Positions 3,879 through 54,590 of a stretch of 55,649 bases of DNA are shown here, one piece after another; the first letter of the stretch is position 1; each line of letters opens with the position of its first letter. This stretch comes from Bacteroidaceae bacterium (GTDB taxonomy: Bacteria; Bacteroidota; Bacteroidia; Bacteroidales; Bacteroidaceae), in assembly GCA_017645655.1 (NCBI GenBank), contig JAGCNZ010000042.1, positions 1-55,649 of the forward strand. Direction: 5' to 3'. The notes under the pieces are model-generated. The model had not been told where the DNA came from, searched no databases, and worked only from the letters and a program-made list of their open reading frames with translations. A program made the translations under genes and the position numbers.

Positions 3879-3988
3879 GATGTTTGAAATCATCACACGT
3901 GATAAATTGATTTTACCCACGTGATATTTGAAATATTACACGTAATAATTTCATTTTACCCACGTGACAATTTCAAACTACCCACGTG
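3871..3988 (-). repeat. CACGTG phased array 1
   Basis: Five units start at 3896, 3918, 3939 (CACGTA), 3961 and 3983, with spacings 22, 21, 22, 22. Read on the minus strand the 16-nt linkers begin GGTA (for example GGTAAAATGAAATTAT), and the single 15-nt linker is TAATATTTCAAATAT. The outer end carries GGCAGGGGATGTTTGAAATC (3871-3890), which recurs inverted beside array 4. It lies between divergent genes. Confidence 0.85.
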
Positions 3989-4042
3989 ACGTTTGGCATT
4001 CAGGCATGTCGATGTCTTTCCTGGTACATTTTGCCCTTATCG

Positions 4043-4074
4043 TTTGGACGCTATCCGACAATTCACTATCTTTG
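4043..4074 (+). promoter_or_regulatory. Promoter (TTTG ... TATCTTTG) for the 4096 gene
   Basis: TTTG at 4043-4046 and TATCTTTG at 4067-4074 are 20 bases apart, as expected for Bacteroidota -33/-7 elements. The position supports translation from the ATG at 4096 rather than from the in-frame ATG at 3964 inside the repeat array. Confidence 0.65.
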
Positions 4075-4095
4075 CGACAGAAATCCTCACGACTC

Positions 4096-5235
4096 ATGCA
4101 AAAAGCTTGGTTCATTCTTCTGGTTTGGCTGTTTTGCGTTTCAGCCTGGGCGCAGGAACTCACCCTGCAGGGTCGCGTCGTTGATGTCGAGACGGGCGAG
4201 CCGCTGCCGTTTGCCTCCATTCATGTGGGCGAGGGCGGGGGAACGCTGACCAACAGCGAGGGTGACTTCCGCCTGACTGCTTCTCCGCAGGATGTCCTGA
4301 CCTTCAGTTTCGTGGGCTTCGAGAGGCTGAGTCTGCAGGCTTGCGAAGTGCCCTCGCGCATCATGCTGAAGCCCTTCGAACGGACTCTGCAGGAACTCGT
4401 CGTGGTGCCTCAGGACGCGCTGGGCACCGTGGCACGAGTCATCAAGAACCTGAGGCGCGACTTCTCCGGGCATAAAAAGGACAGGCAGGGCTATTTCATG
4501 CGAACCTTGCTGAGCGACAGGAAGGACAGCTACCTGATAGAAAGCCTCATGGGATGGGGCGCGGCCGTGAATCTCCGCGAGGGCGAGACCTTCAGCGGCA
4601 TTTTTGGAATGAACGCGGAGGGAGAAAAGAGCAGCATCATGCTGAGGCTGACCAACATACATCACATGGCAGAGATAGGTCCGAGCGCTTTCATGAGCAG
4701 TTACTGGGAGCAGGCCGTCAAGCCCCTCTACAGCCCGTCGATGGCGAGGAAGTACTACGATGTCGGACTCGAAACGCGCTCCGGCGAAATGGGAGAAAAG
4801 CTTTACCGCATCACATTCCAATTGAAAAACAAAGTCGCAAAGAAGCTGGGAAACAGGCGCTGCCTGACGGGAACGGCCTTTGTGGATGCCGAAACGCTCC
4901 GTCTGCTTCGCTTTGAAGGCGAAGTAGGGAATGCGTATCAGTCGGTAAACCTCAATCGGTTGCCAACCGCCATCAGGTTCCATGTCAACTACGACTATTC
5001 TCGCGGCTTCGCGTCGGTAGGCAACATCGCAGTTCAGGGCGGCAACGAAGAGATGAGCTACAAGTCGCTTCTGTTCGGCATCCAGGCCGACAGCCTCGTC
5101 GCAGCAGGCGGCGGCTTCCTGGGAGACAACCTCATCGACGCCCTGAATAATGCCGGTCGCAACTCCACACTGTGGGAGAAATATAATATCGTCGCGCGTA
5201 CAAAAGAGGAAGAGCGCATCGCCTTCGGAGAATAA
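4096..5235 (+). CDS. Exported protein with carboxypeptidase-regulatory-like domain
   Basis: The product is 379 residues from the ATG at 4096. That start gives a clean signal peptide (MQKAWFILLVWLFCVSAWAQ) and lies just after the promoter; the upstream in-frame ATG falls inside the CACGTG array and precedes the promoter. Residues 22-100 form a carboxypeptidase regulatory-like beta-sandwich (LQGRVVDVETGEPLPFASIHV, then TLTNSEGDFRL and FSFVGFE), the module seen at the N-terminus of Bacteroidota outer-membrane proteins. The remaining 280 residues are a conserved-looking domain without motifs I can name, probably periplasmic or outer-membrane associated. It stands alone and reads toward the two leftward tRNA genes. 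Confidence 0.8.
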   Translation: MQKAWFILLVWLFCVSAWAQELTLQGRVVDVETGEPLPFASIHVGEGGGTLTNSEGDFRLTASPQDVLTFSFVGFERLSLQACEVPSRIMLKPFERTLQELVVVPQDALGTVARVIKNLRRDFSGHKKDRQGYFMRTLLSDRKDSYLIESLMGWGAAVNLREGETFSGIFGMNAEGEKSSIMLRLTNIHHMAEIGPSAFMSSYWEQAVKPLYSPSMARKYYDVGLETRSGEMGEKLYRITFQLKNKVAKKLGNRRCLTGTAFVDAETLRLLRFEGEVGNAYQSVNLNRLPTAIRFHVNYDYSRGFASVGNIAVQGGNEEMSYKSLLFGIQADSLVAAGGGFLGDNLIDALNNAGRNSTLWEKYNIVARTKEEERIAFGE

Positions 5236-5245
5236 AAGCAGTAAG

Positions 5246-5279
5246 CCCCCAAAAAGAAAAGCCCAGCGTCTGCTGGGCT
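5246..5279 (-). terminator. Rho-independent terminator of the tRNA-Asn pair
   Basis: AGCCCAGC (5260-5267) pairs perfectly with GCTGGGCT (5272-5279) around a 4-nt loop. On the minus strand the hairpin is followed by TTTTCTTTTT. It lies just beyond the 3' end of the second tRNA-Asn gene. Confidence 0.8.
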
Positions 5280-5282
5280 CTG

Positions 5283-5356
5283 CGCTTCAGGATGGGCTTG
5301 AACCAACGACCCCATGATTAACAGTCATGTGCTCTAACCAACTGAGCTACTGAAGC
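5283..5356 (-). tRNA. tRNA-Asn (GTT), downstream copy
   Basis: The minus strand gives a 74-nt cloverleaf with acceptor GCTTCAG/CTGAAGC, D arm AGCTCAGTTGGTTAGAGC, anticodon loop CTGTTAA (anticodon GTT) and T arm with GGTTCAAGC. The discriminator is G and CCA is not encoded. It is identical to the copy at 5383-5456 and lies exactly 100 bp from it. Confidence 0.95.
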
Positions 5357-5382
5357 AATTTGCAACTGCTCGGAAAAACTTG

Positions 5383-5456
5383 CGCTTCAGGATGGGCTTG
5401 AACCAACGACCCCATGATTAACAGTCATGTGCTCTAACCAACTGAGCTACTGAAGC
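5383..5456 (-). tRNA. tRNA-Asn (GTT), promoter-proximal copy
   Basis: The sequence is identical to the copy at 5283-5356 and is transcribed first from the promoter at 5489-5496. The two genes and the single terminator at 5246-5279 form one short transcription unit. Confidence 0.95.
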
Positions 5457-5488
5457 AGTTTTTTTCGCTTTTTCTTGCAATTGCGGGG

Positions 5489-5496
5489 CAAAGGTA
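5489..5496 (-). promoter_or_regulatory. -7 box TACCTTTG for the tRNA-Asn pair
   Basis: On the minus strand this is TACCTTTG, with transcription predicted to start about 25 bases upstream of the mature tRNA 5' end at 5456. It is arranged back-to-back with the rightward -7 box at 5520. Confidence 0.65.
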
Positions 5497-5519
5497 TAGG
5501 TTTTTTCGGAAATATGCAA

Positions 5520-5527
5520 TATCTTTG
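5520..5527 (+). promoter_or_regulatory. -7 box TATCTTTG for the PfkB kinase operon
   Basis: TATCTTTG lies 18 bases before the ATG at 5546. An alternative TTG start at 5525 falls inside this box, so the ATG is preferred. Confidence 0.65.
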
Positions 5528-5545
5528 CAGAAAATTTTGCACAAT

Positions 5546-6520
5546 ATGGAAAAAATAATCGGAATAGGCAATGCTCTTGTCGATATCCTTGTGCGTCTTG
5601 AAGATGACACGCTGCTTGAACGGGCAGGACTGCCTAAAGGCGGAATGACTCTGATTGATGAAGCCCGACAACACGAACTGCGGGCATGCATGGAAGGGCT
5701 CCCCGTGGAACAGGCGACAGGCGGCAGCGCTGGCAACTCGATGCTGGCTCTGGCTCGGCTTGGCGGCAATGCGGGCTTCGTAGGCAAAGTCGGCAGAGAT
5801 GCCCTCGGCAAGTTCTATGCTGACAACTGCAAGGCTGTGGGCATCGAGGCAAGACTGCTCGAATGCAATCTGCCCACAGGTGTCGCCAACACATTCATCT
5901 CTCCGGACGGCGAACGCACCTTCGGCACTTGTCTCGGCGCAGCAGCAACCTTGCAGGCAAGCGACATCACGCCGCAGCTCTTTGAGGGGGTCTCGATGGC
6001 TCACATCGAAGGTTACCTCGTGCAGAACCACGACTTGATGGAGGCCATCTGTCAGACTGCAATGGAACAAAGCGTGCAGCTCAGCCTCGACCTTGCCAGC
6101 TACAATGTCGTCGCAGCAGACCTGCCTTTCTTCCAGCACCTGGTGCAAGACTACATCGACATCGTCTTTGCAAACGAAGAGGAAGCCGCCGCCTTCACAG
6201 GCAAGACTAATCCTCTGGAGGCTCTGCGCGAAATAGCAGCCCTGAAGTGCTTGGCCGTCGTGAAGCTCGGCAGCAAGGGCGCAAGTGCAAGGCTCGGCAG
6301 GGAAGAAGTCGTGGTGCCCGCCAAGAAGGTTCCAGTAGTGGACACCACGGCAGCGGGCGACTTCTTTGCAGGCGGCTTCCTCTATGCCCTGAACCGAGGC
6401 GCCTCGCTGAAGGACTGCCTCAGTTGTGGTGCGTTACTTAGCGAGCACATCATCGGCGTGGTTGGCACAAGGTTGCCCGACGAAGAGTGGAAAGCAATAA
6501 GAAAAGAAACGAAGAACTGA
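5546..6520 (+). CDS. PfkB-family sugar/nucleoside kinase (adenosine kinase-like)
   Basis: The product is 324 residues, normal for the ribokinase/PfkB family of cytoplasmic ATP-dependent kinases. The N-terminal substrate segment GIGNALVDILV, the GGSAGN motif (GGSAGNSMLALARLGG, about residues 60-75) and the C-terminal signature DTTAAGDFFAGGFL (about 266-279) are present. The Asp of the AGD motif is the family's catalytic base. Overall shape resembles the adenosine kinase branch in Bacteroidota, but the substrate cannot be fixed by reading. It is followed after 1 base by the S41 protease gene, so the two are probably co-transcribed. Confidence 0.88.
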   Translation: MEKIIGIGNALVDILVRLEDDTLLERAGLPKGGMTLIDEARQHELRACMEGLPVEQATGGSAGNSMLALARLGGNAGFVGKVGRDALGKFYADNCKAVGIEARLLECNLPTGVANTFISPDGERTFGTCLGAAATLQASDITPQLFEGVSMAHIEGYLVQNHDLMEAICQTAMEQSVQLSLDLASYNVVAADLPFFQHLVQDYIDIVFANEEEAAAFTGKTNPLEALREIAALKCLAVVKLGSKGASARLGREEVVVPAKKVPVVDTTAAGDFFAGGFLYALNRGASLKDCLSCGALLSEHIIGVVGTRLPDEEWKAIRKETKN

Positions 6521-6521
6521 T

Positions 6522-8159
6522 ATGAAACGCGCGTATATATATATAATAATGTGTATGCTGCCACTCGCCATGGCAGCACAGAAGAAGGAGAACGCCAACT
6601 CGGCCATCAGCCGCAACCTCGAGCTCTTCAATGATATCTACAAGCAACTCGACCTCTTCTACGTCGATTCGCTCAACGCTGACACCGTCATAGGCTGGGG
6701 CATCCGCTCCATGCTGCAACAAGTCGACCCGTTTACCGACTACTTTCCCGACGACGATGAAGACCTCAGGCAGATGGCTACAGGCAAGTATGCCGGCATT
6801 GGCAGCGTGATTCGTTATCACAAGAAGGAGCAAAGAACAGTAATCAGCGAGCCTTACGAAGGCACGCCAAGTCAGTTGGCGGGCGTTCAGGCAGGCGACG
6901 TCATCCTTTCTGTCGACGGGAAAGACGTGAAGGGAATGCTCACGCCCAAGGTGAGCAGCATGCTCAGAGGCGAAGCCGGCACAACTTTCGAGCTGAAGGT
7001 GCGGCGAGGCGAAGAGGAGAAGTCATTCCTCATCACACGACAAACAATACAGCTTCCGCAGGTGCCTTATGCCGGCATACTTGATGATGGAAAGACCGGC
7101 TACATATATCTGACAGGTTTCACCGAGGGAGCTTGCCGAGAAGTTCGAGAGGCATTGGACGACGTGCGCCGTCAAGGAGCCAAGCGACTCGTGTTTGACC
7201 TCCGCGGCAATCCCGGCGGAGCTGTCAACGAAGCAGTAGACATTGCCAACCTCTTCCTGCCGAAAGGCAAAAAGGTGGTCTACACGAGAGGCAAGATGAC
7301 GCGTACCAATCGTGAGTACTACACGGCGACAGAGCCGGTGGACAGTGTGATGCCAGTCATTGTGTTAGTGGATGGAGGCTCGGCATCTGCTTCCGAGATT
7401 GTGGCAGGCTCACTTCAGGACTTCGACCGAGCCGTCATCATGGGCACGAGAACCTACGGCAAGGGCTTGGTTCAGATGATGCGAGAGGTGCCTTATCACG
7501 GGACGCTCAAACTCACGACCAGTCGTTACTACATCCCGAGCGGGCGTTGCATCCAGGCTTACGACTACCGTCATCTCAATGCAGACGGTTCGGCGGGAAC
7601 AGTTCCCGACAGTCTGACGAAGGTCTTCCACACGGCGGGAGGCCGCGAAGTGCGCGACGGAGGTGGTATCAAACCTGATATCGAGGTGAAGCCCGACAGC
7701 CTTCCTACGATGATTTCTGAGCTGATAAACAGCGACGAGTTCTTTGATTACGCAACACACTTCTGCCGTAATCATCCATCGATTGCGCCGGCAGGCAAGT
7801 TCAAGCTGAGCGACGAGGACTATGCCGCCTTTGCCGACAGCATCAGCAGCAGCGGGTTCGAGGCAGGAAAGCCTGCCAAGGAGTTGCTCAAAGTGCTTCG
7901 CGACGTCATCAAGCGCGAGGGGTACCAGGAGGCGACGAAGGATGAACTGGATGCCCTCGAAGCCAAGCTGACCTATGACGTCAAGGCAGACCTGTTGCGC
8001 TTCCGCAAGGAAGTGGAGCCCTACCTGTGCGACGAAATCGTGCATCGCTACTATTTCCAGAAAGGCGGGGCGCAGCAGCAACTCGTCGGCGACCCCTGCA
8101 TCGAGCGTGCATTGCAGGTGCTTGACAGTGAGGAATACAATAAGACACTGGGCAAATGA
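6522..8159 (+). CDS. S41 family C-terminal processing protease (CtpA-like)
   Basis: The product is 545 residues with a signal peptide (MKRAYIYIIMCMLPLAMAAQ), so it is periplasmic or envelope-bound. A PDZ domain spans about residues 90-165 (GTPSQLAGVQAGDVILSVDG). The peptidase core carries the Ser motif GGSASASEIVAGSLQD near residue 288 and the Lys motif GTRTYGKGLVQ about 25 residues later, the Ser/Lys dyad of tail-specific proteases. The family cleaves substrates near their C-termini. The first codons sit in an unusual GCGC/TATA-rich run. The stop overlaps the next start by 4 bases (ATGA), indicating translational coupling with the DUF4886 gene. Confidence 0.93.
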   Translation: MKRAYIYIIMCMLPLAMAAQKKENANSAISRNLELFNDIYKQLDLFYVDSLNADTVIGWGIRSMLQQVDPFTDYFPDDDEDLRQMATGKYAGIGSVIRYHKKEQRTVISEPYEGTPSQLAGVQAGDVILSVDGKDVKGMLTPKVSSMLRGEAGTTFELKVRRGEEEKSFLITRQTIQLPQVPYAGILDDGKTGYIYLTGFTEGACREVREALDDVRRQGAKRLVFDLRGNPGGAVNEAVDIANLFLPKGKKVVYTRGKMTRTNREYYTATEPVDSVMPVIVLVDGGSASASEIVAGSLQDFDRAVIMGTRTYGKGLVQMMREVPYHGTLKLTTSRYYIPSGRCIQAYDYRHLNADGSAGTVPDSLTKVFHTAGGREVRDGGGIKPDIEVKPDSLPTMISELINSDEFFDYATHFCRNHPSIAPAGKFKLSDEDYAAFADSISSSGFEAGKPAKELLKVLRDVIKREGYQEATKDELDALEAKLTYDVKADLLRFRKEVEPYLCDEIVHRYYFQKGGAQQQLVGDPCIERALQVLDSEEYNKTLGK

Positions 8160-9610: not shown

Positions 9611-9613
9611 ATA

Positions 9614-9700
9614 AGTAGTTAGCGGTTAGAGGCTATAAGTTAGAGAATACCTTTGGCCCTGAAATACGCTTTCAAAACATTCCTCTAACCGCTAACCACT
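9614..9700. repeat. Inverted repeat with 19-bp arms ahead of the SecB-like gene
   Basis: AGTAGTTAGCGGTTAGAGG (9614-9632) is the reverse complement of 9682-9700 with one mismatch, giving a hairpin with a 49-nt loop. The loop contains a TACCTTTG box (9648-9655). The words GTTAGCGGTTAG look like a dispersed low-complexity repeat. Confidence 0.7.
9648..9655 (+). promoter_or_regulatory. Possible -7 box TACCTTTG
   Basis: It matches TAnnTTTG and would give a leader of about 70 bases before 9734 that includes one arm of the inverted repeat. Confidence 0.4.
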
Positions 9701-9733
9701 AATCGCTAACCTCAAAAACAAATAAAATACATC

Positions 9734-10243
9734 ATGGCACAACAACAGAAACAGATTCAGATTCAGTTCCGCTTGATGGATGTCAAGCAACTTCAGTTCG
9801 TCAACCTTGCCAACGAGTGGCCGGAGGGCGAGATGCAAATCAACAACCAGCTGCAGTTCAACTGCGATACGGACAAGCGTATCGTGCGCTGCAACGCAAA
9901 TTTCGAGTACAAGAAGAACGACATCACGCAACTCATCCTTGGCGTGCAGACCGTTTTCGAGTTCACACGCGAGAGTTGGAGCTCGCTCTACCAGCTCAAC
10001 GAGGACCAGTGGGTGTTGCCTGCAGGCTTGGTGCAGCACATGGCGGACATCACCATAGGCTGCGCCCGAGGCATCATGGCAATCCGAAGCGAAGAGTCGG
10101 GAATACCGAAGCAAATCTTGCCGCTTGTCAATCCGGGACAGATGCTTCGCAACAACGTCGCTTTCAAGCGCGTCCCGCAGCAGCAGAACAATCCTTCTGG
10201 AGGCAGCCCCATCCCCTTGGACGGCACCCTCGGCAACGCGTAA
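9734..10243 (+). CDS. SecB-like conserved protein
   Basis: The product is 169 residues, without signal peptide or membrane segment, so cytoplasmic. It starts with a Gln-rich segment (MAQQQKQIQIQ). Alternating hydrophobic strands, then HMADITIGCARGIMAIRSEE followed by PKQILPLVNPGQML, resemble the C-terminal part of the SecB chaperone (ARE...SRG...P.NL.PVNF). I infer a SecB-like fold; binding of unfolded or export-bound proteins would follow from that but is not shown. The last 25 residues are Gln/Asn/Gly/Pro-rich and probably disordered. It is followed by a 780-bp gene-free region. Confidence 0.6.
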   Translation: MAQQQKQIQIQFRLMDVKQLQFVNLANEWPEGEMQINNQLQFNCDTDKRIVRCNANFEYKKNDITQLILGVQTVFEFTRESWSSLYQLNEDQWVLPAGLVQHMADITIGCARGIMAIRSEESGIPKQILPLVNPGQMLRNNVAFKRVPQQQNNPSGGSPIPLDGTLGNA

Positions 10244-10281
10244 AGCCCTTTTTCGACAGCGGACTGAGCTTTATAAAAGCG

Positions 10282-10378
10282 CGAATTACACGAATTACAC
10301 GAATTGTCTCCCTTGCGAACAGGCGGAAGCATTGCCTGCAACAGGGATATTTACAACTCGTGCAATTCGTGTAATTTG
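10282..10378. repeat. CGAATTACACGAATT inverted repeat (long hairpin)
   Basis: The left arm 10282-10307 and right arm 10353-10378 are 26 nt each and complementary at 23 positions, with a 45-nt loop. Each arm is built of repeated words CGAATTACA. The same family occurs at 10873-10899 (one arm) and 35399-35477. Confidence 0.8.
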
Positions 10379-10705: not shown

Positions 10706-10757
10706 CACGTGTTATGTTTTCAATCATCACGTGTTAAGTCGAAAAACTTCCCACGTC
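10706..10757. repeat. CACGTG phased array 2 (short, decayed)
   Basis: Units lie at 10706 and 10728 (spacing 22), with CACGTC at 10752 (spacing 24). Linkers are partly conserved (TTATGTTTTCAATCAT). It lies between the SecB-like gene and der. Confidence 0.7.
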
Positions 10758-11003: not shown

Positions 11004-11022
11004 CCGCGCAATTTATGTAGTT

Positions 11023-18139: not shown

Positions 18140-18273
18140 CACGTGGAGACCACCTCCCCTTTGGGGGGAATTAAAATTATCACGTGGGTAAAATGAAATT
18201 ATCACGTGTAATATTTCAAATATTACGTGGGTAAAATGAATTTATCACGTGGGTGAATTTCAATCATCACGTG
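18140..18273 (+). repeat. CACGTG phased array 3 with a nested C-rich element
   Basis: Units start at 18140, 18181, 18203, 18224 (TACGTG), 18246 and 18268. The last five are spaced 22, 21, 22, 22. The first linker is 35 nt instead of 16 because a C-rich/G-rich element (CACCTCCCCTTTGGGGGG, 18151-18168) sits in it. The 15-nt linker is TAATATTTCAAATAT. It lies between lptB and the phosphatase-like gene. Confidence 0.85.
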
Positions 18274-25373: not shown

Positions 25374-25534
25374 CACACGAGTCATTTCCAAACGTCACGT
25401 GGGTAGTTTGAAATTGTCACGTGGGTAAAATTAAAATATCACGTGTTAAAATTAAAATATCACGTGGGTAAAATCAATTTATCACGTGGGTAAATTGAAT
25501 TTATCACGTGTGATGATTGCAGACATCCCCTGCC
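25374..25534 (+). repeat. CACGTG phased array 4
   Basis: Perfect units start at 25396, 25418, 25440, 25461, 25483 and 25505 (spacings 22, 22, 21, 22, 22). A decayed unit, CACACG, sits in register at 25374. The right end continues TGATGATTGCAGACATCCCC then TGCCG, matching the outer end of array 1. It lies between the convergent recQ and GH43 genes and is the most intact copy. Confidence 0.9.
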
Positions 25535-34061: not shown

Positions 34062-34084
34062 CGCGGCATAGCATCCAAGACAAC

Positions 34085-34118
34085 GGAGCAGCACCTTTCG
34101 GGGTGCTGCTCCTTTTTT
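34085..34118 (+). terminator. Rho-independent terminator of hsp20
   Basis: GGAGCAGCACC (34085-34095) pairs with GGTGCTGCTCC (34102-34112) around a 6-nt loop, followed by TTTTTT. Confidence 0.92.
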
Positions 34119-34132
34119 GTTGCCCAACTTGA

Positions 34133-34160
34133 CACGTTAAGAAGTTTGAATCATCATGAT
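34133..34160. repeat. Decayed CACGTG array remnant
   Basis: CACGTT (34133) and CATGAT (34155) are 22 bases apart with linker AAGAAGTTTGAATCAT, resembling the last linker of array 3 (GGTGAATTTCAATCAT). It appears to be a worn-down copy of the array family. Confidence 0.4.
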
Positions 34161-34266
34161 AGTTCAACGAATCAGGCACGATATCTTGAGCAAGCAAACT
34201 TGTTAAGTAATGCTAAGAGACACAAAAAAATTCTTCATTCTTCACTCTTCGTTCTTCATTTTTTCA

Positions 34267-34274
34267 TATCTTTG
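34267..34274 (+). promoter_or_regulatory. -7 box TATCTTTG very close to the radical SAM start
   Basis: TATCTTTG ends only 4 bases before the ATG at 34279, so transcription would begin at or next to the start codon. Confidence 0.6.
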
Positions 34275-34278
34275 CGAC

Positions 34279-36941: not shown

Positions 36942-36949
36942 CAAAGATA
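36942..36949 (-). promoter_or_regulatory. -7 box TATCTTTG for aroQ and the methyltransferase
   Basis: CAAAGATA on the plus strand is TATCTTTG on the minus strand, about 45 bases ahead of the aroQ ATG. Confidence 0.6.
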
Positions 36950-36955
36950 GAAAAA

Positions 36956-36984
36956 AGATTAGAGATTAGGGATTAGAGATTAGG
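36956..36984. repeat. GATTAG-rich low-complexity repeat
   Basis: Tandem GATTAGA/GATTAGG words lie between the aroQ promoter and the xerD start, as at 15655 and 29881. Confidence 0.6.
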
Positions 36985-37008
36985 TTTTTTTTCCTTAAAT
37001 GACGAAAA

Positions 37009-37985: not shown

Positions 37986-38117
37986 GGGATGACGGAAAAC
38001 TACCCACGTGATAAATTCATTTTACCCACGTGATATTTGAAATATTACACGTGATAATTCGATTTTACCCACGTGACAAATTATTTTTACCCACGTGACG
38101 TCTGTCGTCGTCACGTG
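37986..38117 (-). repeat. CACGTG phased array 5
   Basis: Units start at 38005, 38027, 38048, 38070, 38092 and 38112 (spacings 22, 21, 22, 22, 20). Read on the minus strand the linkers begin GGTAAAA and the 15-nt linker is TAATATTTCAAATAT. The left end carries GCAGGGGATGACGG, the same terminal motif as arrays 1 and 4. It lies between xerD and the Lrp-type regulator. Confidence 0.88.
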
Positions 38118-43085: not shown

Positions 43086-43178
43086 CACGTTAACTTTGAA
43101 AACGACCCACGTGACAATTGCAATTATTACACGTTATATTTTAAATATTACACGTTATAATTCGAATTTACCCACGTT
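43086..43178 (-). repeat. CACGTG phased array 6
   Basis: Units start at 43086 (CACGTT), 43108 (CACGTG), 43130, 43151 and 43173 (all CACGTT), spacings 22, 22, 21, 22. Four of five units carry the same G-to-T change, unlike the other arrays. It lies between the convergent dus and symporter genes. Confidence 0.8.
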
Positions 43179-43191
43179 AGGTTTTTTTTCA

Positions 43192-44631
43192 TCACTTGCG
43201 GCGACTGGTGACGAGCAAGCCGAGGAAGGTCAGAGCGGCGTTGAGCAGCAGGAGTTCATAGCTGAAACAGTAGTTCCACAGAAGTGGGGCGAGGTAGTCC
43301 AACGCTGCGCAGGCGATTGGAGATACGATGGCGACGAAGGGCACGGCGCTGTCGCAGGCCCTCCTGCCGGTGAGGAGTCCGAAGCAGAAGAGCCCTAAAA
43401 GCGGGCCGTAGGTATAGCCTGCCAGGCGGTAGATGGTGTCGATGATGGTGCCGCTGCCTGCGATGTGGAAGACGGCGATGCAGAGGGCGAAGGCCAGTGC
43501 GACTGCCACGTGGACGCGATGCCGGGTGCGAAGGGCTCTCTCCTGCCCCACTCCATCTTGCTCTATCCTGAGGATATCCACGCAAATACTTGTGGTAAGA
43601 GACGTCATGGCGCTGTCGGCACTGGAGAGCGCGGCTGCCGTGATGCCGATGGTAAACGGGAAGACGACGAAGGTGCCCAACGCTCCGCTGCCTACAAGCA
43701 TGGGCAGCAAGCGGTCGCCTGCCTCGGGAAGAGCCATTCCTTGCTGAGCTGCAAAGGTGTAGAGAAGCACGCCAAGCGCGAGGAAGAGCAGGTTGACGGG
43801 CAGGATGCAGAGGCCGTAGAGGCACATGTTCTTCTGTGCTGCTCGCAGAGAAACGCAGGTCAGGTTCTTCTGCATCATGTCCTGGTCGAGGCCGTTCATA
43901 ACGATGGTAATGAACATACCGTTGATGAACTGCCGCAGGAAGAACTGTGTACTCGAGGCATCCCAGCAGAACATCTTTCCCATCGGACTTTGTGAAATCG
44001 TCTCCACTATGCCGGCAGGAGAATCCAACCGTGTCGAGACAGCCCACACGATGCAGCCCGTGGCCAGAAGCAGGCAGAAGGTTTGCAAGGCATCGGTGCG
44101 GACAATGTTCTCTATGCCTCCCCGTCGGGTATAGAGGTAAATGGCGAGCAGGACGACGCCAACCGTGAAAGCAAACGGAAGACCCAGCGGACGAACGGCC
44201 ATCTCATGCAGTACGGTACACGTCAGGAACAGCCTCGCAGCCGCTCCTGTCAGCTTGCTCAGCAAGAAGAAGCACGCGCCGGTAAGGTGGCTCCTACGTC
44301 CGAATCGCTCGGCAAGGTAGCCGTAGATGCTGGTGAGCCTCAGCCTGTAGTACAACGGAAGCAGGAGAAAGGCGATGACAACATAGCCCGCGAAGAAGCC
44401 CAGGCACATCTGGATGTACGTCATGCCGTTCTGATGCACCCAGCCAGGCACGCTGACAAGGCTCACGCCGCTGATGCTGGCACCTATCATTCCGAAGGCA
44501 ACGAGCAGCCACGGCGACCGTCTGCCGGCACGGAAGAACGCGTTGTTATCGCCATTCGACCTCGTACGGGCAAAGATGACAAGCAGCATTATGTATAGCC
44601 CCAAAGCAGAAAAGACGAGATAATTGGCCAT
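43192..44631 (-). CDS. Sodium:solute symporter (SSS family)
   Basis: The product is 479 residues from the ATG at 44631; a GTG 12 bases upstream is possible. About 13 membrane segments are visible. SSS-family features include GMIGASISGVSLVSVPGW, YGYLAERFGRRS and LSSADSAMTSLTTSICVDIL (the last containing the SSxDSxxT sodium-site signature). It imports an unknown solute with sodium. It is divergent from the GH78 rhamnosidase gene, sharing the 80-base promoter region, so uptake of a sugar released by that enzyme is a reasonable but unproven idea. Confidence 0.92.
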   Translation of the reverse strand: MANYLVFSALGLYIMLLVIFARTRSNGDNNAFFRAGRRSPWLLVAFGMIGASISGVSLVSVPGWVHQNGMTYIQMCLGFFAGYVVIAFLLLPLYYRLRLTSIYGYLAERFGRRSHLTGACFFLLSKLTGAAARLFLTCTVLHEMAVRPLGLPFAFTVGVVLLAIYLYTRRGGIENIVRTDALQTFCLLLATGCIVWAVSTRLDSPAGIVETISQSPMGKMFCWDASSTQFFLRQFINGMFITIVMNGLDQDMMQKNLTCVSLRAAQKNMCLYGLCILPVNLLFLALGVLLYTFAAQQGMALPEAGDRLLPMLVGSGALGTFVVFPFTIGITAAALSSADSAMTSLTTSICVDILRIEQDGVGQERALRTRHRVHVAVALAFALCIAVFHIAGSGTIIDTIYRLAGYTYGPLLGLFCFGLLTGRRACDSAVPFVAIVSPIACAALDYLAPLLWNYCFSYELLLLNAALTFLGLLVTSRRK

Positions 44632-47503: not shown

Positions 47504-47594
47504 CACGCTTAGTTGACAAATATCACGTGGAATATTTCAAATATTACGTGTTAAGTTTACGATTTAGGCACGTTAAGTTGAGGGACTAAGCGTG
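47504..47594 (+). repeat. CACGTG phased array 7 (decayed)
   Basis: Units are CACGCT (47504), CACGTG (47524), TACGTG (47545), CACGTT (47569) and AGCGTG (47589), spacings 20, 21, 24, 20. The diagnostic linker GAATATTTCAAATAT is intact. The flank AACATCCCC (47475-47483) matches the terminal motif of arrays 1, 4 and 5. It lies between convergent genes. Confidence 0.75.
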
Positions 47595-47608
47595 CCGCGT
47601 TTTATGAC

Positions 47609-48052
47609 TTAACCTATGGTGACGGTACGCGTCTCATCCTCAAGGACTTGGATGTCCACCCTGACTGTATCCTCGGGAAGCAGTTCCTCCACCAGTTCGG
47701 GCCATTCGATGAAGCAGGGACGACCACTGTAGAAATAGTCCTCGCAGCCGATGTCGTAGGCTTCCTTGAGGTTCTTGATGCGATAGAAGTCGAAGTGATA
47801 GACGGGCTGCCCCTGAGCATCGGCATATTCGTTGACGATGGCGAACGTAGGCGAAGCGACAGTGTCCTTCACGCCCAGTGCCTCGCAGATAGCTTTGATG
47901 AACGTCGTCTTGCCTGCCCCCATCTTGCCATAGAAGGCGAAAACGCAATTTTCGCCCATTTCATCGACAAATTTCTGTGCCGCCTCGGCAAGAGTGATGC
48001 CCTCCAAACCTCCCTGAGGGGCTTCTATGCTTTGAATTTTGAATTTATACAT
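47609..48052 (-). CDS. tsaE: tRNA t6A modification ATPase TsaE
   Basis: The product is 147 residues. Walker A is GKMGAGKT (residues 42-49), followed by ASPTFAIVNEYADAQGQPVYHFDFYR and FIEWPELVEELLPEDTV, all characteristic of TsaE, the ATPase of the t6A37 complex. The N-terminal residues MYKFKIQSIEAPQGGLEG are unusual: they are encoded by a simple AAATTCAAAATTCAAA run plus a C-rich element (copy h). It is the last gene of the leftward aroA-porW-porX-tsaE cluster. Confidence 0.93.
   Translation of the reverse strand: MYKFKIQSIEAPQGGLEGITLAEAAQKFVDEMGENCVFAFYGKMGAGKTTFIKAICEALGVKDTVASPTFAIVNEYADAQGQPVYHFDFYRIKNLKEAYDIGCEDYFYSGRPCFIEWPELVEELLPEDTVRVDIQVLEDETRTVTIG
48001..48027. repeat. C-rich element, copy h, at the tsaE N-terminus
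   Basis: On the minus strand, AAGCCCCTCAGGGAGGTTTG followed by GAGGG is translated as EAPQGGLEG. Confidence 0.45.
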
Positions 48053-48066
48053 TTTGAATTTTATTA

Positions 48067-48086
48067 TCCCCGTAAGGGGGTAAGGC
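48067..48086. repeat. C-rich/G-rich hairpin, copy i, between porX and tsaE
   Basis: TCCCCGTAAGGGGGTAAGGC lies in the 37-base spacer between porX and tsaE and could form a short hairpin. Confidence 0.5.
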
Positions 48087-48089
48087 CTT

Positions 48090-49640: not shown

Positions 49641-49690
49641 AGGTCAGTTATTAGTCAGCGTAATGGGAATCGTCGGGCAAATCAGGAGGC

Positions 49691-52663
49691 TTACCAGCCG
49701 AAGGGGAAATCGTCGTCCTCAGCCTCTACTTCCTGCTCCTTCTCTTCCTGTTCGCGCTTGTCCAACTCGTCGGGATCCAGTATCTCGAGGTCTGCGGGCG
49801 TGTCTATCTTGAGGTCCTCGGGCACTTCGAGCGGTGCGAAGTGCTCGTCGTAGAATGCCTTGTAGTCATCAAAGCTGAACTCCTTGCCAATCATCTTGAG
49901 GTTGTCGTCAGAGATAAGCAACGTGCGGATGCCTTCGAGGCGGGTTCGCATGCGCTCGTCGGAGTAGAGCCTTTGTGCATAGGCGTGTACCTCGTCGTAG
50001 GCAAGGAAGCCTTTTATTATCATCATGGTCAGTCCGGCATCTGCTTGAATCTCGATGTCGAAGTTACGCGCCATGAAGTTCGTGAAGTTGTAGTGTGCCA
50101 TCTCGAAGACCAGCATGTTCTCGTCGAGGCTGCCCGTCGGGTATGCCAGGACGAAATTGAAGTTCGTGTAGCGGTCCTCCTTGAGAGTCGGCACCGCCTC
50201 TGTGCTGTCGCCCGATTCGACACGGGTGCGTCTGCTCCATATGCTGCTGGCGTCGTAGCGGTCGTCCATCAGCAAGCGTCCTTCGTCGAGACCTTTCACG
50301 ATGGCCTGTGCTATTTCTGTCACTTCTTCTCTCGGGAATTTCTGCACCACGTCACGCAGCGTCACCATAAACGTGTCACGTTGTCCGTCGTAGAGTGAGC
50401 TCATGGCACGTATGAACATCATGCGCGCCCTGTGTCTTCCTTCGGGGAAGTTGTCGGTGCTGAACTGATAGTTCTCCTCTACTTTCTTATAATCCTCCGT
50501 CTGATAAGCCCCGTAAGCCTCAGCATAGATGCTGTCCTCGACGTGTTTGCCCTCGCGAGCAATCATCTCGTAGTTCGGGTTGCCAAGCAAGAAGGCAAGC
50601 TTGGCATCAGGATAGTCCTCAAGCAGGTAGCCCTTGTATTCTTCTGCACCTTCCATGTCTTCAAGTCGCCCGTAGAGAAGGAAGAGGTGATAGAAGACGT
50701 TGTCCGTGCCCTCATGTTCAGGAAAGTCATTCAGGAAGCGTATCATCGTTTTCTCAGCGAGGGGGAAGTTCTCGAGCTGTTCCTGCTCTTGAATACCTGC
50801 GTTGTACAGGGCTTCTCCAAGCAAACGATTGGATTCTTCCATCTGTTCCTCCGTGAAAGGAATCTGCTTGAGATAGTACTCGCGCTCATGCGGGTCGTTG
50901 CCCAGCGAGTCCTTGCGCGCCTTTTCTGCTGCAGCGATACTGTCAGCCTCGGCTGCACTTGTTGCGGCGCCAAAGAGGCTGTCGGCTGTGGCTTCATCAA
51001 TCCCATCGTATTTCTTGGCATCTTCCGCACTCATGCTTGCCAGCAAAGATCTCTTATTGCTAATGCGCCAGAAGTTCTCGTTGGGACGTGAACCCCATCG
51101 TCTTTGGAACTCCTGTATGCCGTTGCGAACGGTCATGGGATTGTAGAAGTACCAATCTCCCTGCTGTTGTCCGCCCATCATACCCATCTGATTCATCTGG
51201 CCAGCACCAGCGTCTTTGCCTGCCATGCCCATATTCATGCCGTTGTTCATGGCATTGGGATTCAGGGTGCCATTCGCCGCGGCCTTTTTCGCTTCCTCTT
51301 TTTCCTTCTTACGAAGCTCGGCAATAACGCGGTCGATTGCTGCGAGATAAACTTCCTCGGGACTTTGCGCGAGCACCTGCAAGCTGTCCTGAAGCTTTAT
51401 GGTACTCAAGTGAGGCTCCAGGTCGCTAAGTATTTTGCTGCGACGCTCGCTCTCCTTATATTCCTGATGTTCCTTGTCGAGGGCACCAACGCAGAGTTTG
51501 TATGTGCGAGCTGCCTCGATGTAATCCTCTTGTTCCCAATATAGTTGACTTAGATGCAGCAGTAGCGTCGCCTTGTCGGGGCCATTCTTAGTGCTTTCCT
51601 TAAGTCCCTTCTCCCAGGCATAGATGCAATGCGTCGTGTCCTCGTTAGCGAGGTAGATATTGCCCATTGCATAATAGACCTTGTCGAGGTAGTCTTTGTT
51701 CTTGTCGCTCTTTGCCATGCGTTTGAGTCGTGCAATCATTTGTCGGAACTTGCCCTTGTGCATGACTTCGGTCTGCATAATGCGTGCGTTGAATGCTATC
51801 TCGTAAGGCGGATTGGCGCGTATCACTTTGGAGAGCGTCTTGTAGGCCATCGTGTCGCGTCCCGTCTCGTGATAAAGCTGCGCCAGCAGGAAGTTGAGAC
51901 GTGCTTTTGGAAGTTTGCCTTTGGTCGTCTTGATGGCATTCTTCAGGTGAGGGATAGCCTCTTTATACTGGCGAGTGAGCACGTAATAGCCTGCCTTGGT
52001 GTTCTCCACTTCCTGCTGCCCTTTGCGAGTGATGCTGTCGCGCTTCATCTTGTTGAGCAGGTCTTCGGCATCATACGGCCAATTGAGTGCCACGTAGCAA
52101 CGCGCCAGTTTTGCTTTGGCTACGGAGGTGATGTCTGGCTGCGTGCTGTAAAGTCGGAGGATATAGTTGTAGGTAGAGGCTGCTTCAAAGAACTCGCCCT
52201 TTTGGAACTGCGCATCAGCCATCATGAACCATGCGTGGTACATGTAGGGATTGAACTCTTTGCGAGCCAGAAACGCCTTTTCCTTTTCCGTTCGCTTGCT
52301 GTTACCCTTGACGATGGGACGCTTCTTGATGCTGTGCACCTTGATAGCCTTTTCGCTTTTGGTAATGGCTGTTTCGTAGTTGCTCTTGCCCAATCCTGCT
52401 GTGGCCTTATTGGTGCAGATGTACATGGGCAGTATCTCGTTGAAGTTGTCCTTGTGCCCTTTGCTCTGTGCTTCAAAGCCTTCTTGGTAGGCAACTTGTC
52501 CGTTGTAGAGCGTGTTGTAGTGTGCCGTCAGGGCGTGGTAAGCGCGTGTGGAGGGTGTGTTCTTCTTCGTAGAACATGACACGACAAGGGTGAGCAGCAC
52601 GATAAACACCGTGCAGCAACACTTGCTCCTCAGCCTTCCGATTCTCGCCACGCTCTTTTCCAT
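49691..52663 (-). CDS. porW: PorW/SprE-like TPR lipoprotein of the T9SS
   Basis: The product is 990 residues. The lipobox VVSC (Cys30) is followed by STKKNT and the opening RAYHALTAHYNTLYNGQVAYQ, typical of SprE/PorW. Tetratricopeptide helices fill residues 130-450 (HAWFMMADAQFQKGEFFEAASTYNYILRLY and similar). A Met/Gly/Gln-rich spacer near 470-500 and further TPR-like segments at 600-800 follow. The tail is Glu-rich (DPDELDKREQEEKEQEVEAEDDD). PorW is reported to link the PorX/PorY regulators to the T9SS machine; having porX next to it supports the assignment. Confidence 0.88.
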   Translation of the reverse strand: MEKSVARIGRLRSKCCCTVFIVLLTLVVSCSTKKNTPSTRAYHALTAHYNTLYNGQVAYQEGFEAQSKGHKDNFNEILPMYICTNKATAGLGKSNYETAITKSEKAIKVHSIKKRPIVKGNSKRTEKEKAFLARKEFNPYMYHAWFMMADAQFQKGEFFEAASTYNYILRLYSTQPDITSVAKAKLARCYVALNWPYDAEDLLNKMKRDSITRKGQQEVENTKAGYYVLTRQYKEAIPHLKNAIKTTKGKLPKARLNFLLAQLYHETGRDTMAYKTLSKVIRANPPYEIAFNARIMQTEVMHKGKFRQMIARLKRMAKSDKNKDYLDKVYYAMGNIYLANEDTTHCIYAWEKGLKESTKNGPDKATLLLHLSQLYWEQEDYIEAARTYKLCVGALDKEHQEYKESERRSKILSDLEPHLSTIKLQDSLQVLAQSPEEVYLAAIDRVIAELRKKEKEEAKKAAANGTLNPNAMNNGMNMGMAGKDAGAGQMNQMGMMGGQQQGDWYFYNPMTVRNGIQEFQRRWGSRPNENFWRISNKRSLLASMSAEDAKKYDGIDEATADSLFGAATSAAEADSIAAAEKARKDSLGNDPHEREYYLKQIPFTEEQMEESNRLLGEALYNAGIQEQEQLENFPLAEKTMIRFLNDFPEHEGTDNVFYHLFLLYGRLEDMEGAEEYKGYLLEDYPDAKLAFLLGNPNYEMIAREGKHVEDSIYAEAYGAYQTEDYKKVEENYQFSTDNFPEGRHRARMMFIRAMSSLYDGQRDTFMVTLRDVVQKFPREEVTEIAQAIVKGLDEGRLLMDDRYDASSIWSRRTRVESGDSTEAVPTLKEDRYTNFNFVLAYPTGSLDENMLVFEMAHYNFTNFMARNFDIEIQADAGLTMMIIKGFLAYDEVHAYAQRLYSDERMRTRLEGIRTLLISDDNLKMIGKEFSFDDYKAFYDEHFAPLEVPEDLKIDTPADLEILDPDELDKREQEEKEQEVEAEDDDFPFGW

Positions 52664-52693
52664 AACATATAATTAACGTACGCGCGTAGCGTT

Positions 52694-52981
52694 TTATTGT
52701 GTTTGGTCCCCAACAATGAGTAAAACTTCGTCTTTCAGTTCGTCGGGAAGGGGAACTCTGCGCAGTTCGAGACTACGCACCCAGCCTGCCACTTCGTCGG
52801 TTCGCATGGTATAGAGCACCTCACGGAACTGCTCGACCTCTTCGTCGGTGAAGGACGTTCTGCCACGGAAGCGGTCGAGTTCCTCGTCTTCATAGTAGTC
52901 GATATCCTGAGGGGCAAACCGCAGGCTCTCTTTCTCGCAGACCTCATGCTGTCCGCAACACTCAAAATCTATCTGCTGCAT
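52694..52981 (-). CDS. Small conserved Bacteroidota protein of unknown function
   Basis: The product is 95 residues, acidic and without signal peptide. A Cys/His cluster near the start (FECCGQHEVCEKESL) suggests metal binding. The core YYEDEELDRFRGRTSFTDEEVEQFREVLYTM and WVRSLELRRVPLPDELKDEVLLIVGD looks like a known but uncharacterised Bacteroidota family. The start overlaps the aroA stop by 13 bases, and porW begins 31 bases downstream, so it belongs to the cluster. Confidence 0.75.
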   Translation of the reverse strand: MQQIDFECCGQHEVCEKESLRFAPQDIDYYEDEELDRFRGRTSFTDEEVEQFREVLYTMRTDEVAGWVRSLELRRVPLPDELKDEVLLIVGDQTQ

Positions 52982-54231
52982 ACACTAAAACCTACTTTTT
53001 CGAGGTCGTCCCAGAAGTTCGGATACGACTTGGTTACCACTTGCGGGTTGTTTATTTGTATCTCGCCGCCTGTCCGAAGGCATACCGGTGCAAGCGACAT
53101 GGCCATGCGATGGTCGTCATATGTATCGAAGACGAACGTTTCGTAGGGCAACATATCGAGGTCTTCTATCTCATAGAAGCCTTCCCAAAGCAATTCGTTG
53201 TCCTGCTCTTCCAGACGCACAATCTTGCCGAGTTCGTTCATCAGGGCAGCGATGCGGTCGGTCTCCTTGATGCGCAGGCTCTGCAGGCCGTAGAGGTGGA
53301 AGGGCACGTCGAGCATCGCGCAAGTCACTGCAAAGGTCTGTGCCAAGTCGGGCTGGTGGGTGAAGTCGCAGGTGAAGTGGCAGGTGATGCCTCCTCCCTT
53401 GCGGAGTCGGATGACTTCCGTCCCGTCGGGCTCTACGTAATATTGTGTCACGACGCCCAGTTCGCTGAAGAGTTGCCAGACGCGACTGTCGCCTTGGATG
53501 CTGTCGTGATGCAGCCCGACGAGTTCCACTTCAGCATTCGCATCGGGAGTCAGCGCGACCATCTCGTACCAATAACTCGCCGCGCTCCAGTCGCTCTCGA
53601 TGTGATAGGGTCGCTGGAGGTAGGTGCCCGGCCTGACGTCGATGACGTTGTCGCCTTGCCACTCTGCCTGCGCTCCAAAATCACGCATCATGCTGAGGGT
53701 CATGTCGAGGTAAGGACGGCTTGCTATCGCGCCCGTCAAGGTGAGACGCAGGCCGTTTCGGAGCGTGGGGGCAATCATCAGGAGGGCAGATATGTACTGC
53801 GAACTGACATCGCCCGGGACGGTCAGAGCGCCGCCTTCGAGGTTCTCGTGTCCCGTGATGCGCAGCGGCGGGAAGCCCTCCTCGCCTTCGTAGGAGACGG
53901 TGGCGCCCAGCTGACGAAGTGCATCGACGAGGATGCCGATGGGACGGTGCTTCATGCGCTCGGTGCCGGTAATGGTGTGCTCGCCAGGTGTGACACTCAG
54001 GTAGGCCGTAAGGAACCGCATAGCTGTGCCCGCGGCGCCGATGTCGATAGTTTCCGGCATAGCCTTTAGGGCCCGGAGCATCACTCTGGTGTCGTCGGAA
54101 TCCGACAGATTATCGGGCAGCAACGTGTTCCCGCTCAGCGCATTTATCACTAATGCACGGCCCGAAATGCTCTTACTGGCAGGCAGCACGACACGCCCCC
54201 GGAGCTGGCTTCCTGAACTGATTTTTATCAT
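52969..54231 (-). CDS. aroA: 3-phosphoshikimate 1-carboxyvinyltransferase (EPSP synthase)
   Basis: The product is 420 residues from the ATG at 54231. A TTG 24 bases upstream lies almost at the predicted transcription start and is rejected. Substrate-binding motifs are LPASKSISGRALVINAL, GAAGTAMRFLTAYLS (the LGNAGTAMR-like loop), DVSSQYISALLM, RIKETDRIAALMNELGK and DDHRMAMSLAP. The enzyme joins phosphoenolpyruvate to shikimate-3-phosphate. It leads the leftward cluster that continues into porW and porX. Confidence 0.95.
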   Translation of the reverse strand: MIKISSGSQLRGRVVLPASKSISGRALVINALSGNTLLPDNLSDSDDTRVMLRALKAMPETIDIGAAGTAMRFLTAYLSVTPGEHTITGTERMKHRPIGILVDALRQLGATVSYEGEEGFPPLRITGHENLEGGALTVPGDVSSQYISALLMIAPTLRNGLRLTLTGAIASRPYLDMTLSMMRDFGAQAEWQGDNVIDVRPGTYLQRPYHIESDWSAASYWYEMVALTPDANAEVELVGLHHDSIQGDSRVWQLFSELGVVTQYYVEPDGTEVIRLRKGGGITCHFTCDFTHQPDLAQTFAVTCAMLDVPFHLYGLQSLRIKETDRIAALMNELGKIVRLEEQDNELLWEGFYEIEDLDMLPYETFVFDTYDDHRMAMSLAPVCLRTGGEIQINNPQVVTKSYPNFWDDLEKVGFSVCSR

Positions 54232-54263
54232 TAAGCTTGTATTATTTTTCGACAATTACGGCA

Positions 54264-54271
54264 CAAAGTTA
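54264..54271 (-). promoter_or_regulatory. -7 box TAACTTTG for the aroA-porW-porX-tsaE cluster
   Basis: On the minus strand this is TAACTTTG with a leader of about 26 bases to the aroA ATG. No further clear -7 box was seen between here and tsaE, so one transcript of about 6.6 kb is possible. Confidence 0.6.
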
Positions 54272-54303
54272 CGAAAAAGTTTGGAAGGAACAAAAAAAAG
54301 TCA

Positions 54304-54311
54304 TACCTTTG
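54304..54311 (+). promoter_or_regulatory. -7 box TACCTTTG for tRNA-Pro
   Basis: TACCTTTG lies 19 bases before the mature tRNA at 54331, back-to-back with the aroA promoter. Confidence 0.65.
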
Positions 54312-54330
54312 CAGCGCGAAATGCAAGGAA

Positions 54331-54403
54331 CGGGATGTAGCGCAGTTGGTAGCGCACACGTCTGGGGGGCGCGAGGTCGCAAGTTCGAGTCTTGTCATCC
54401 CGA
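54331..54403 (+). tRNA. tRNA-Pro (GGG)
   Basis: A 73-nt cloverleaf has acceptor CGGGATG/CATCCCG, D arm GCGCAGTTGGTAGCGC, anticodon loop CTGGGGG (anticodon GGG) and T arm GCAAGTTCGAGTCTTGT. C1-G72 with A73 are tRNA-Pro identity features. The anticodon stem has an A28-C42 mismatch. CCA is not encoded (ACCT follows). Confidence 0.93.
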
Positions 54404-54408
54404 CCTTA

Positions 54409-54455
54409 GAAAGAGCCGAAAGCTTGGTCACAAGCAGTCGGCTCTTTCGTTTTTC
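54409..54455 (+). terminator. Rho-independent terminator of tRNA-Pro
   Basis: GAAAGAGCCGA (54409-54419) pairs with TCGGCTCTTTC (54438-54448), with an inner GCTTG/CAAGC stem, followed by GTTTTTC. Confidence 0.85.
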
Positions 54456-54497
54456 TGTGGTGCGTATGATGGCACTCCACGTTGAGGCAAAAAACAT

Positions 54498-54590
54498 CAC
54501 GTGGGTAAAATGAATTTATCACGTGGAATATTTCAAATATCACGTGGGTAAAATTGATTTATCACGTGGGTAAATTGAAAACGACACGTG
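54498..54590 (+). repeat. CACGTG phased array 8
   Basis: Five perfect units start at 54498, 54520, 54541, 54563 and 54585 (spacings 22, 21, 22, 22). The linkers are GGTAAAATGAATTTAT, GAATATTTCAAATAT, GGTAAAATTGATTTAT and GGTAAATTGAAAACGA. It lies between tRNA-Pro and the convergent TlpA-like gene. Confidence 0.9.

Follow-up and report, generated by a model that had tools for sequence, protein, structure and literature searches.

This report concerns short intergenic repeat arrays in a 55,649-nt stretch of a Bacteroidaceae bacterium (assembly GCA_017645655.1, contig JAGCNZ010000042.1, positions 1 to 55,649), which is referred to as the window. An earlier note, made from the letters of this DNA, had described eight sites at which the palindrome CACGTG recurs at steps of about 22 bp. 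All eight sites are present in the window, and the CACGTG arrays are one member of an intergenic class that has a period of 21-22 bp and a variable unit sequence. In the genome from which the window comes, the arrays are spaced more regularly than chance, also where neighbours belong to unrelated families. The period and the spacing persist while the repeat sequence often changes from site to site and from species to species, which suggests a chromosome-punctuating element that is defined by its geometry. Our tentative reading, to which we would give somewhat less than an even chance, is that these geometry-defined elements, about 7 kb apart, would act at the level of DNA as docking platforms for a putative protein, as supercoil buffers or as barriers.

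The CACGTG arrays have a well-defined anatomy. The window's own genome (2.74 Mb in 130 contigs, 84% complete) contains 515 pairs of CACGTG that are 20-23 bp apart, versus 2 for the control pattern; the arrays, for which the earlier note had called for a genome-wide search, are thus real. A 345-kb sample of this genome combines the window with 20 further stretches, and most of its CACGTG pairs no more than 140 bp apart have distances of 21, 22, 43, 44, 65, 87 and 109 bp (14 pairs at 21, 59 at 22, 29 at 43, 18 at 44, 32 at 65 and 19 at 87). The runner-up among all 6-bp palindromes, TCATGA, has 5 pairs at 21/22 bp versus 73 for CACGTG. When cores are chained into arrays the steps are 22 bp (92), 21 bp (31), 20 bp (7) and 24 bp (7), and the single 21-bp step that had been noticed in well-kept arrays is a general feature, as 29 of 36 arrays have exactly one. 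This step lies near the middle of the array (mean relative position 0.53, sd 0.16, 28 arrays). Its 15-nt linker is indeed a near-palindrome, and the centre ACGTGNAATATTTNAAATATNACGTG, allowing up to 2 mismatches, occurs in 93 + 92 copies on the two strands (185 in total; control 0). The inner four units are nearly identical across arrays and have polar linkers of the GGTAAAATnAAwTTAT type (29 centre-aligned matches, two of them in one array). Information declines gradually over about 100 bp on either side of these 29 aligned centres, and outward of the inner units there are degenerate core-GTTTnnnAAAC units that resemble the units of congeners (compare the relatives G053 and G093). Array sizes range from 2 to 8 cores, or about 30-160 bp, and a typical array has 5-6 cores in 94-116 bp. 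Alignment on the centre and on 72 ends revealed no common terminal repeat or sharp end. Partial motifs were seen at the ends: CCCTGC at a constant offset in 5 of 72, GTGCC-like motifs with 18 matches at offsets 14-19, and a GTTT-n-AAAC dyad, searched as a regular expression, in 9 of 72 ends versus 18 of 20322 other intergenic positions. The proposal that all cores lie on the same face of the helix holds approximately; two turns of relaxed B-DNA take 21 bp (at 10.5 per turn), and with 22-bp steps each core would be rotated by about 34 degrees relative to the one before it, unless the DNA is underwound.

The initial focus on CACGTG caught real arrays but was too narrow, as the same period occurs with units around GCATGC, GTATAC, ACTAGT, AAGTACnnGGACTT and other sequences. 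A self-similarity scan of the 345-kb sample over lags of 12-60 bp gave 34 hits at 22 bp, 23 at 43, 7 at 44 and 5 at 21, with at most 3 at any other lag. At a lower threshold, periods of 21, 22, 43 and 44 bp account for 51 of 66 non-overlapping tandem arrays; 33 of these 51 contain CACGTG and 18 do not, the latter including some CACGTT variants and two arrays inside open reading frames (ORFs). Among 78 arrays with periods of 17-32 bp in 140 loci of relatives, 41 have a period of 22 bp and 14 have 21 bp, some of the 21s being coding repeats. A sample of 200 kb of Escherichia coli K-12 contained one array at 21 bp and none at 22 bp. Perfect palindromes of at least 8 bp occur in 19 of 72 units (6.3 expected) and of at least 10 bp in 10 of 72 (1.6 expected), the units being not independent in this count because families recur.

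The sample of genomes is partial. The relatives G053, G057, G093, G181, G255 and G218 were selected partly for high counts of CACGTG or GTGCAC, ten others for having zero CACGTG pairs, and the remaining ones for spread. Seven of the ten congeners that lack CACGTG pairs (5-40 kb of each) have a 22-bp array and one has a 21-bp array; no 21/22-bp array was found in the 5-40 kb stretches scanned of G012 and G054. Of 21 genomes scanned, 12 have at least one array at 22 bp, 2 have arrays at 21 bp only and 7 have none, with some rows that look coding and four of the 7 array-less genomes covered by less than 22 kb each. CACGTG pairs themselves are distributed unevenly. At least one pair is present in 75 of 139 genomes of the genus, many of which have one or two, the control level, and in 104 of 399 genomes of the family sample; counts range from 0 to 515 among congeners. 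In CACGTG-rich species the linkers vary from species to species. The control pattern GTGCAC-N15/16-GTGCAC is itself abundant in G181 (34), G218 (40), G255 (49) and G273 (12) and is perhaps a further family of the same geometry.

Comparison with close relatives reveals that sites can be retained when unit sequences are not. The closest named relatives, identified by a RecQ search (93-94% identity), are the metagenome-assembled genomes RGIG6885 (sheep rumen), RGIG4467 (roe deer omasum) and RUG11599, here G504, G505 and G506. A relative has an array in 7 of 11 orthologous gaps in which the window has one, versus 4 of 38 in which the window has none (p = 0.0009; p = 0.004 when limited to larger gaps), and control periods gave 0 of 49; the 49 comparisons share sites and hence are not independent. 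The detector missed the window's 47.5 kb array and a two-unit array of G506 at 43.1 kb. In the 38.0 kb gap all four genomes have a 22-bp array: the window uses CACGTG, G505 and G506 use units around GCATGC, and G504 uses AAGTACACGGACTTATGGCAAT units. In the 54.5 kb gap G504 and G505 carry other, unrelated 22-bp families, and in G506 no array was found there by the detector. Unit sequences are unrelated to those of the window at two sites, in three relatives at 38.0 kb and in two at 54.5 kb. A similar situation exists behind recQ, where the downstream gene order differs and locus L044 has an AACGTG-type and locus L045 a GTATAC-type 22-bp array. Similarity to both loci stops right after recQ (window 25256), where the arrays lie, and rearrangements may have their points at arrays. 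The old-type units of G506 at 43.1 and 47.5 kb align with the flanks of the window array, whose interior adds new-type units; at 43.1 kb it is the outer window units that align with the two-unit array of G506. A gap at 34062-34278 has a strong 22-bp array of the TTGCAnnTACATGT type in G505 and G506 and none in the window.

Array positions and spacing were determined in 683 kb of the window's genome, comprising the retrieved parts of contigs C1-C16 together with the window (C32), C17, C37, C68 and C70. Contigs C17, C37, C68 and C70 were picked once centre coordinates had been inspected, and the idea of even spacing arose from the coordinates of C11, C17, C27 and C32, of which C11, C17 and C32 were later inside the tested set. 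The earlier estimate of one array per 7 kb is right within the window, but over 683 kb there is one per 9 kb. Distances between occupied gaps have a mean of 7.4 kb and a coefficient of variation (CV) of 0.51, versus 0.80 +- 0.09 expected for gaps chosen at random with weights for type and length; none of 5000 draws had a CV as low. Distances below 2.5 kb are nearly absent (1 of 56 versus 18.6% expected); counted from array to array there are 2 of 60, at 1339 and 2200 bp. With null models confined to likely transcription-unit boundaries, P for the CV is 0.0002 to 0.0022. When C11, C17 and C32 are left out, the CV is 0.52 versus 0.79 (P 0.0042) and the exclusion zone has P 0.016 (26 distances). 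In 250 kb of G504, G505 and G506 the 16 distances have a mean of 7.1 kb and a CV of 0.42 versus 0.81 +- 0.15, none of 4000 draws being as low, and adjacent arrays were judged by eye to belong to different families. In G093, 1 of 45 distances is below 2.5 kb versus 12% expected (P 0.01). Exclusion also acts across families within the window's genome: for 16 arrays of other families, a few of which are low-scoring or A/T-rich and may be false, the median distance to the closest CACGTG array is 5.4 kb, whereas it is 2.8 kb for gaps without an array (p = 0.005), and 2 of the 16 are within 2.5 kb of such an array versus 44% (p = 0.008). Contig C6 (joined L029, L030 and L284-L286) has no CACGTG array from about 45 kb to its end; this part, in which another family is present as 21-bp arrays at 73.3 and 83.0 kb, is possibly acquired DNA.

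The arrays favour convergent gaps and avoid divergent ones. Genes were called as hexamer-scored ORFs of our own making, no published gene finder being involved. The arrays had been thought to lie always outside genes, and 72 of the 76 CACGTG arrays in 683 kb do lie in gaps (45 co-directional, 18 convergent and 9 divergent), but 3 are in predicted ORFs and 1 is at an edge. Occupancy is 18/33 for convergent, 45/132 for tandem and 9/53 for divergent gaps (convergent versus divergent, p = 0.0006), and none of the 32 divergent gaps shorter than 350 bp is occupied. When 22-bp arrays of any family are counted in G093, the corresponding values are 11/20, 33/83 and 3/33. The arrays occur in both orientations, as first reported, and their polarity is balanced (33 plus, 31 minus and 12 unclear). 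Relative to transcription in tandem gaps, 17 point the same way and 23 the opposite way.

Why would a period and a set of sites be kept when the sequence is not? We propose that each array may be a platform for a protein that depends on the phasing of dyads or of deformability and very little on base sequence. Candidate binders would be a nucleoid protein or, by analogy with the BIME-2 elements of E. coli, DNA gyrase. The arrays could then serve as a supercoil buffer or barrier that splits the chromosome into segments of about 7 kb. New unit families would expand inside old arrays and then replace them, with older units staying at the edges, and it is proposed that they can do so because geometry alone matters. 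A fixed geometry, tolerance of many sequences, independence of strand, location between genes away from divergent promoters and occurrence once per 7 kb or so are together fitted best by a supercoil-handling platform. The suggestion in the earlier note of a gene-boundary or nucleoid-organising element gains from the regular spacing, the avoidance of divergent gaps and the absence of strand preference, and a dimeric protein, as the note expected, may bind the cores cooperatively. It is an open question how supercoil domains of the order of 10 kb are set up in bacterial chromosomes, and whether fixed DNA sites are responsible. The abstract of PMC3420936 also gives the figure of 10 kb.

Several results weigh against a geometry-defined platform. 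When C37, C68 and C70 are removed in addition to C11, C17 and C32, the remaining 7 contigs with 13 distances give P 0.078 for the CV and 0.60 for exclusion. In G504-G506 exclusion is borderline (1 of 16 distances below 2.5 kb, P 0.055 and 0.028). In G093 the CV of 0.71 versus 0.85 is non-significant with a detector limited to gaps (P 0.08-0.11; P 0.048 under an earlier, less clean detector). Not all retained sites have changed their sequence, as G506 has old-type units at 18.1 and 47.5 kb that share their sequence type with the window's own. Circular symmetry of the whole unit is significant in just 13 of 55 units. An 11-bp A/T harmonic was not found in 57 consensus units of relatives (z 0.3 for W and -0.7 for WW), and intrinsic curvature, computed with a wedge table, was not found in 66 arrays of the window's genome (z -1.0) or in 69 others (z 0.4). 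Together the lack of this harmonic and of curvature argues against a simple gyrase or wrapping model. Finally, on both strands the arrays fold better as RNA than shuffled sequences do (z about -3.9, 29 arrays), so that they may also act as RNA. The same 57 consensus units have an unpredicted A/T harmonic at 5.5 bp (z 3.6) and a deficit at 22 bp (z -3.2).

One alternative, which we regard as unlikely but worth serious attention, is that the arrays are selfish dispersed repeats, spread by an unknown mobilising enzyme and tolerated in gaps, in which case target immunity or a homing preference for older arrays would account for the even spacing as well as for the retained sites. The 185 near-identical centres in one genome imply copying, and some copying process must have spread them; the wide range of CACGTG pair counts among congeners and the presence of new-type units within old-type arrays at both sites inspected agree with such an origin. 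Similar arrays are also found in phage contigs. In IMG/VR, 42 stretches matched a pattern of three CACGTG cores at 21-22 bp; nine of them have array-type linkers by eye, three sharing one identical array. The ten phage contigs scanned (these nine plus L260) likewise have 21 and 22 bp as their most frequent short periods, also with different cores, and L274 has further 22-bp arrays with other cores. Searches with ten proteins from three contigs identified a portal protein and a prohead protease in L275, a prohead protease in L264, and a sliding clamp and an RNA ligase in L274; the L275 array is flanked by the genes of its portal protein and prohead protease. Such arrays can therefore enter phage genomes. 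A plasmid collection had no match to the 25.4-kb array. What selfish spread does not predict, if immunity is sequence-specific, is exclusion between unrelated families, and the arrays have neither sharp ends nor terminal inverted repeats. The RAYT family (PF01797, Y1_Tnp) has a match in 62 of 139 genomes of the genus, including the array-bearing G016 and G102, and no match in G053, G057, G093 or the window's genome, where absence is unproven because the assembly is 84% complete. A REP/RAYT origin was rejected on the missing PF01797 match, and a miniature inverted-repeat transposable element (MITE) was rejected because centre- and end-alignments gave no common terminus, only partial motifs. The earlier idea of a non-autonomous mobile repeat of either kind thus finds no support.

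A second possibility, which appears improbable, is that the arrays work as RNA, either as bidirectional terminators or as hairpins of the 3' untranslated region that protect or end transcripts. Enrichment in convergent gaps, low folding energy on both strands and the inverted arms with unpaired centres of several units are all expected of such elements. The dyad centres were compared for RNA and DNA, and both centre pairs are complementary in 6 of 28 axes versus 7% in shuffles. Arrays of this kind should have a polarity relative to transcription, which the tandem gaps do not show; in addition, divergent gaps hold 9 of the arrays, the arrays at recQ and tRNA-Pro have terminator-like sequences of their own in front of them (by eye), and terminators would need neither a fixed period nor even spacing.

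It has also been considered that the spacing is produced by purging, in which direct repeats that lie close together are lost by deletion of the intervening DNA and the arrays are functionless. Purging would yield a short-range exclusion zone for identical arrays, yet oppositely oriented neighbours do not come closer to each other than equally oriented ones (minimum 2.9 versus 2.6 kb; medians 6.9 kb for 20 pairs and 6.2 kb for 21), and these similar distances argue against loss of close direct repeats as the cause. Unrelated families exclude one another as well, and recurrence in orthologous gaps with changed sequence would go unexplained, so that purging is very improbable. That the arrays are operators of a CACGTG-specific transcription factor is suggested by the conserved 6-bp palindrome and the several sites per array, but is the least credible explanation, as the promoters of divergent genes are avoided, the 20 window proteins searched have no evident common function, and unrelated cores occupy orthologous sites.

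Within the window CACGTG occurs 37 times, versus 16.6 +- 3.6 in shuffles. The numbers of exact copies at the eight sites are, in order, 4, 2, 5, 6, 6, 1, 1 and 5, and 7 further copies lie elsewhere. The earlier count of 3-7 copies per site is exact at five sites, but those at 10.7, 43.1 and 47.5 kb have 2, 1 and 1 and need one-mismatch cores to count as arrays. The last degenerate core of the 43.1 kb array runs into the end of the symporter gene.

Table 1. Arrays of the window and CACGTG arrays of phage contigs.
DNA	Feature	Coordinates	Strand	Details
Window	CACGTG array	3896..3988	-	4 exact cores plus one degenerate; centre 3918-3943; divergent gene gap
Window	Short array	10706..10757	+	2 exact cores plus one degenerate, different linkers; upstream of Der GTPase gene
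Window	CACGTG array	18181..18273	+	Centre 18204-18229; co-directional gap; additional CACGTG at 18140 off-phase
Window	Six-core CACGTG array	25396..25510	+	Steps 22, 22, 21, 22, 22; convergent gap between recQ and the 25546-27633 gene
Window	Six-core CACGTG array	38005..38117	-	One 20-bp step; centre 38027-38052; gap between phage-integrase-family (XerD-like) gene and Lrp/AsnC gene
Window	Degenerate array, CACGTT/CACGTG cores	43086..43198	-	Centre 43130-43155; convergent gap between dus and symporter gene
Window	Short array	47524..47574	+	Centre 47525-47550 within old-type units (GGCACGC / TTAAGTTT); convergent gap between rhamnosidase gene and tsaE
Window	Five-core CACGTG array	54498..54590	+	Centre 54521-54546; downstream of tRNA-Pro and of the 54629-55630 gene
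L264	CACGTG array	10-58		21-22 bp steps
L274	CACGTG array	10202-10250		21-22 bp steps
L275	CACGTG array	3384-3433		21-22 bp steps

Other repeats were also seen in the window. Two tRNA-Asn genes at 5281-5461 form a 100-bp tandem duplication whose copies are 98% alike, and low-complexity pieces at 48031-48060 (TTTGAATTTTGAATTT-like) and 36942-36991 (GATTAGAGATTAGG) have many near copies in relatives.

How do the arrays compare with known systems? BIME-2 of E. coli consists of intergenic palindromic clusters with many gyrase cleavage sites, according to passages of PMC6379681 and PMC2817692, and repetitive extragenic palindromes (REPs) have, according to PMC3733652, one end tagged with GTAG or CGTC. 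Judged from these passages, REP/BIME-2 elements (Enterobacteria, Pseudomonas, Stenotrophomonas) are likewise clustered extragenic palindromic repeats with more than 100 copies per genome. Unlike them, the arrays described here have a fixed 21-22 bp period, unrelated units at the same orthologous site and even spacing, and no RAYT was found in their genome. Porphyromonas gingivalis belongs to the same order as the array host. Its BrickBuilt MITE is also intergenic and has internal 23-nt tandem repeats, and 41-, 23- and 22-nt tandem repeats were described earlier in strain W83, as stated in parts of PMC4596501. BrickBuilt, of which one strain has 19 copies, is bounded by a leader and a tail that carry terminal inverted repeats (PMC4596501), whereas the present arrays have no sharp ends, 185 centres, several unrelated families and even spacing. 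The strong gyrase site motif of E. coli is described in a passage of PMC6379681 as about 130 bp, with a centre and periodic arms, and as frequent downstream of transcribed units. As far as that passage goes, a centre with periodic flanks over about 130 bp may be comparable with the arrays, which typically span 94-116 bp and have their one 21-bp step near the middle; the array period is 22 and not 11 bp, and the phased G/C variation was not seen as an 11-bp harmonic. The TAACTGA repeats of Beggiatoaceae, Cyanobacteria and some Bacteroidetes are intergenic sets of short repeats with a sporadic distribution as well, but in the relevant passages of PMC4679880 they consist of a single heptamer in tandem, which in most cases adjoins a start codon, with no 22-bp period.

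It had been supposed that no described family matches these arrays, and this stands: the matches of the window to Rfam above the gathering threshold are three tRNAs only, and no description of such an array class was recognised in the open-access literature. REP/BIME and BrickBuilt are the nearest published elements recognised, and interchangeable sequence at retained sites and even spacing are absent from the passages on both.

A broader statement, which we put forward as a possibility and hold with more doubt than the platform itself, is that Bacteroidaceae chromosomes would be punctuated about every 7 kb by a boundary element recognisable by its geometry, whose unit families are replaced within retained sites under selection for a regularly spaced function. 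Satellite DNA at eukaryotic centromeres turns over in a way that parallels the proposed replacement of units at retained sites. If this statement is true, the arrays would be a bacterial counterpart of satellite turnover at conserved sites and would belong to a type of element that is hard to detect by sequence similarity. They would also provide directly testable candidate boundaries in the chromosomes of a major gut lineage.

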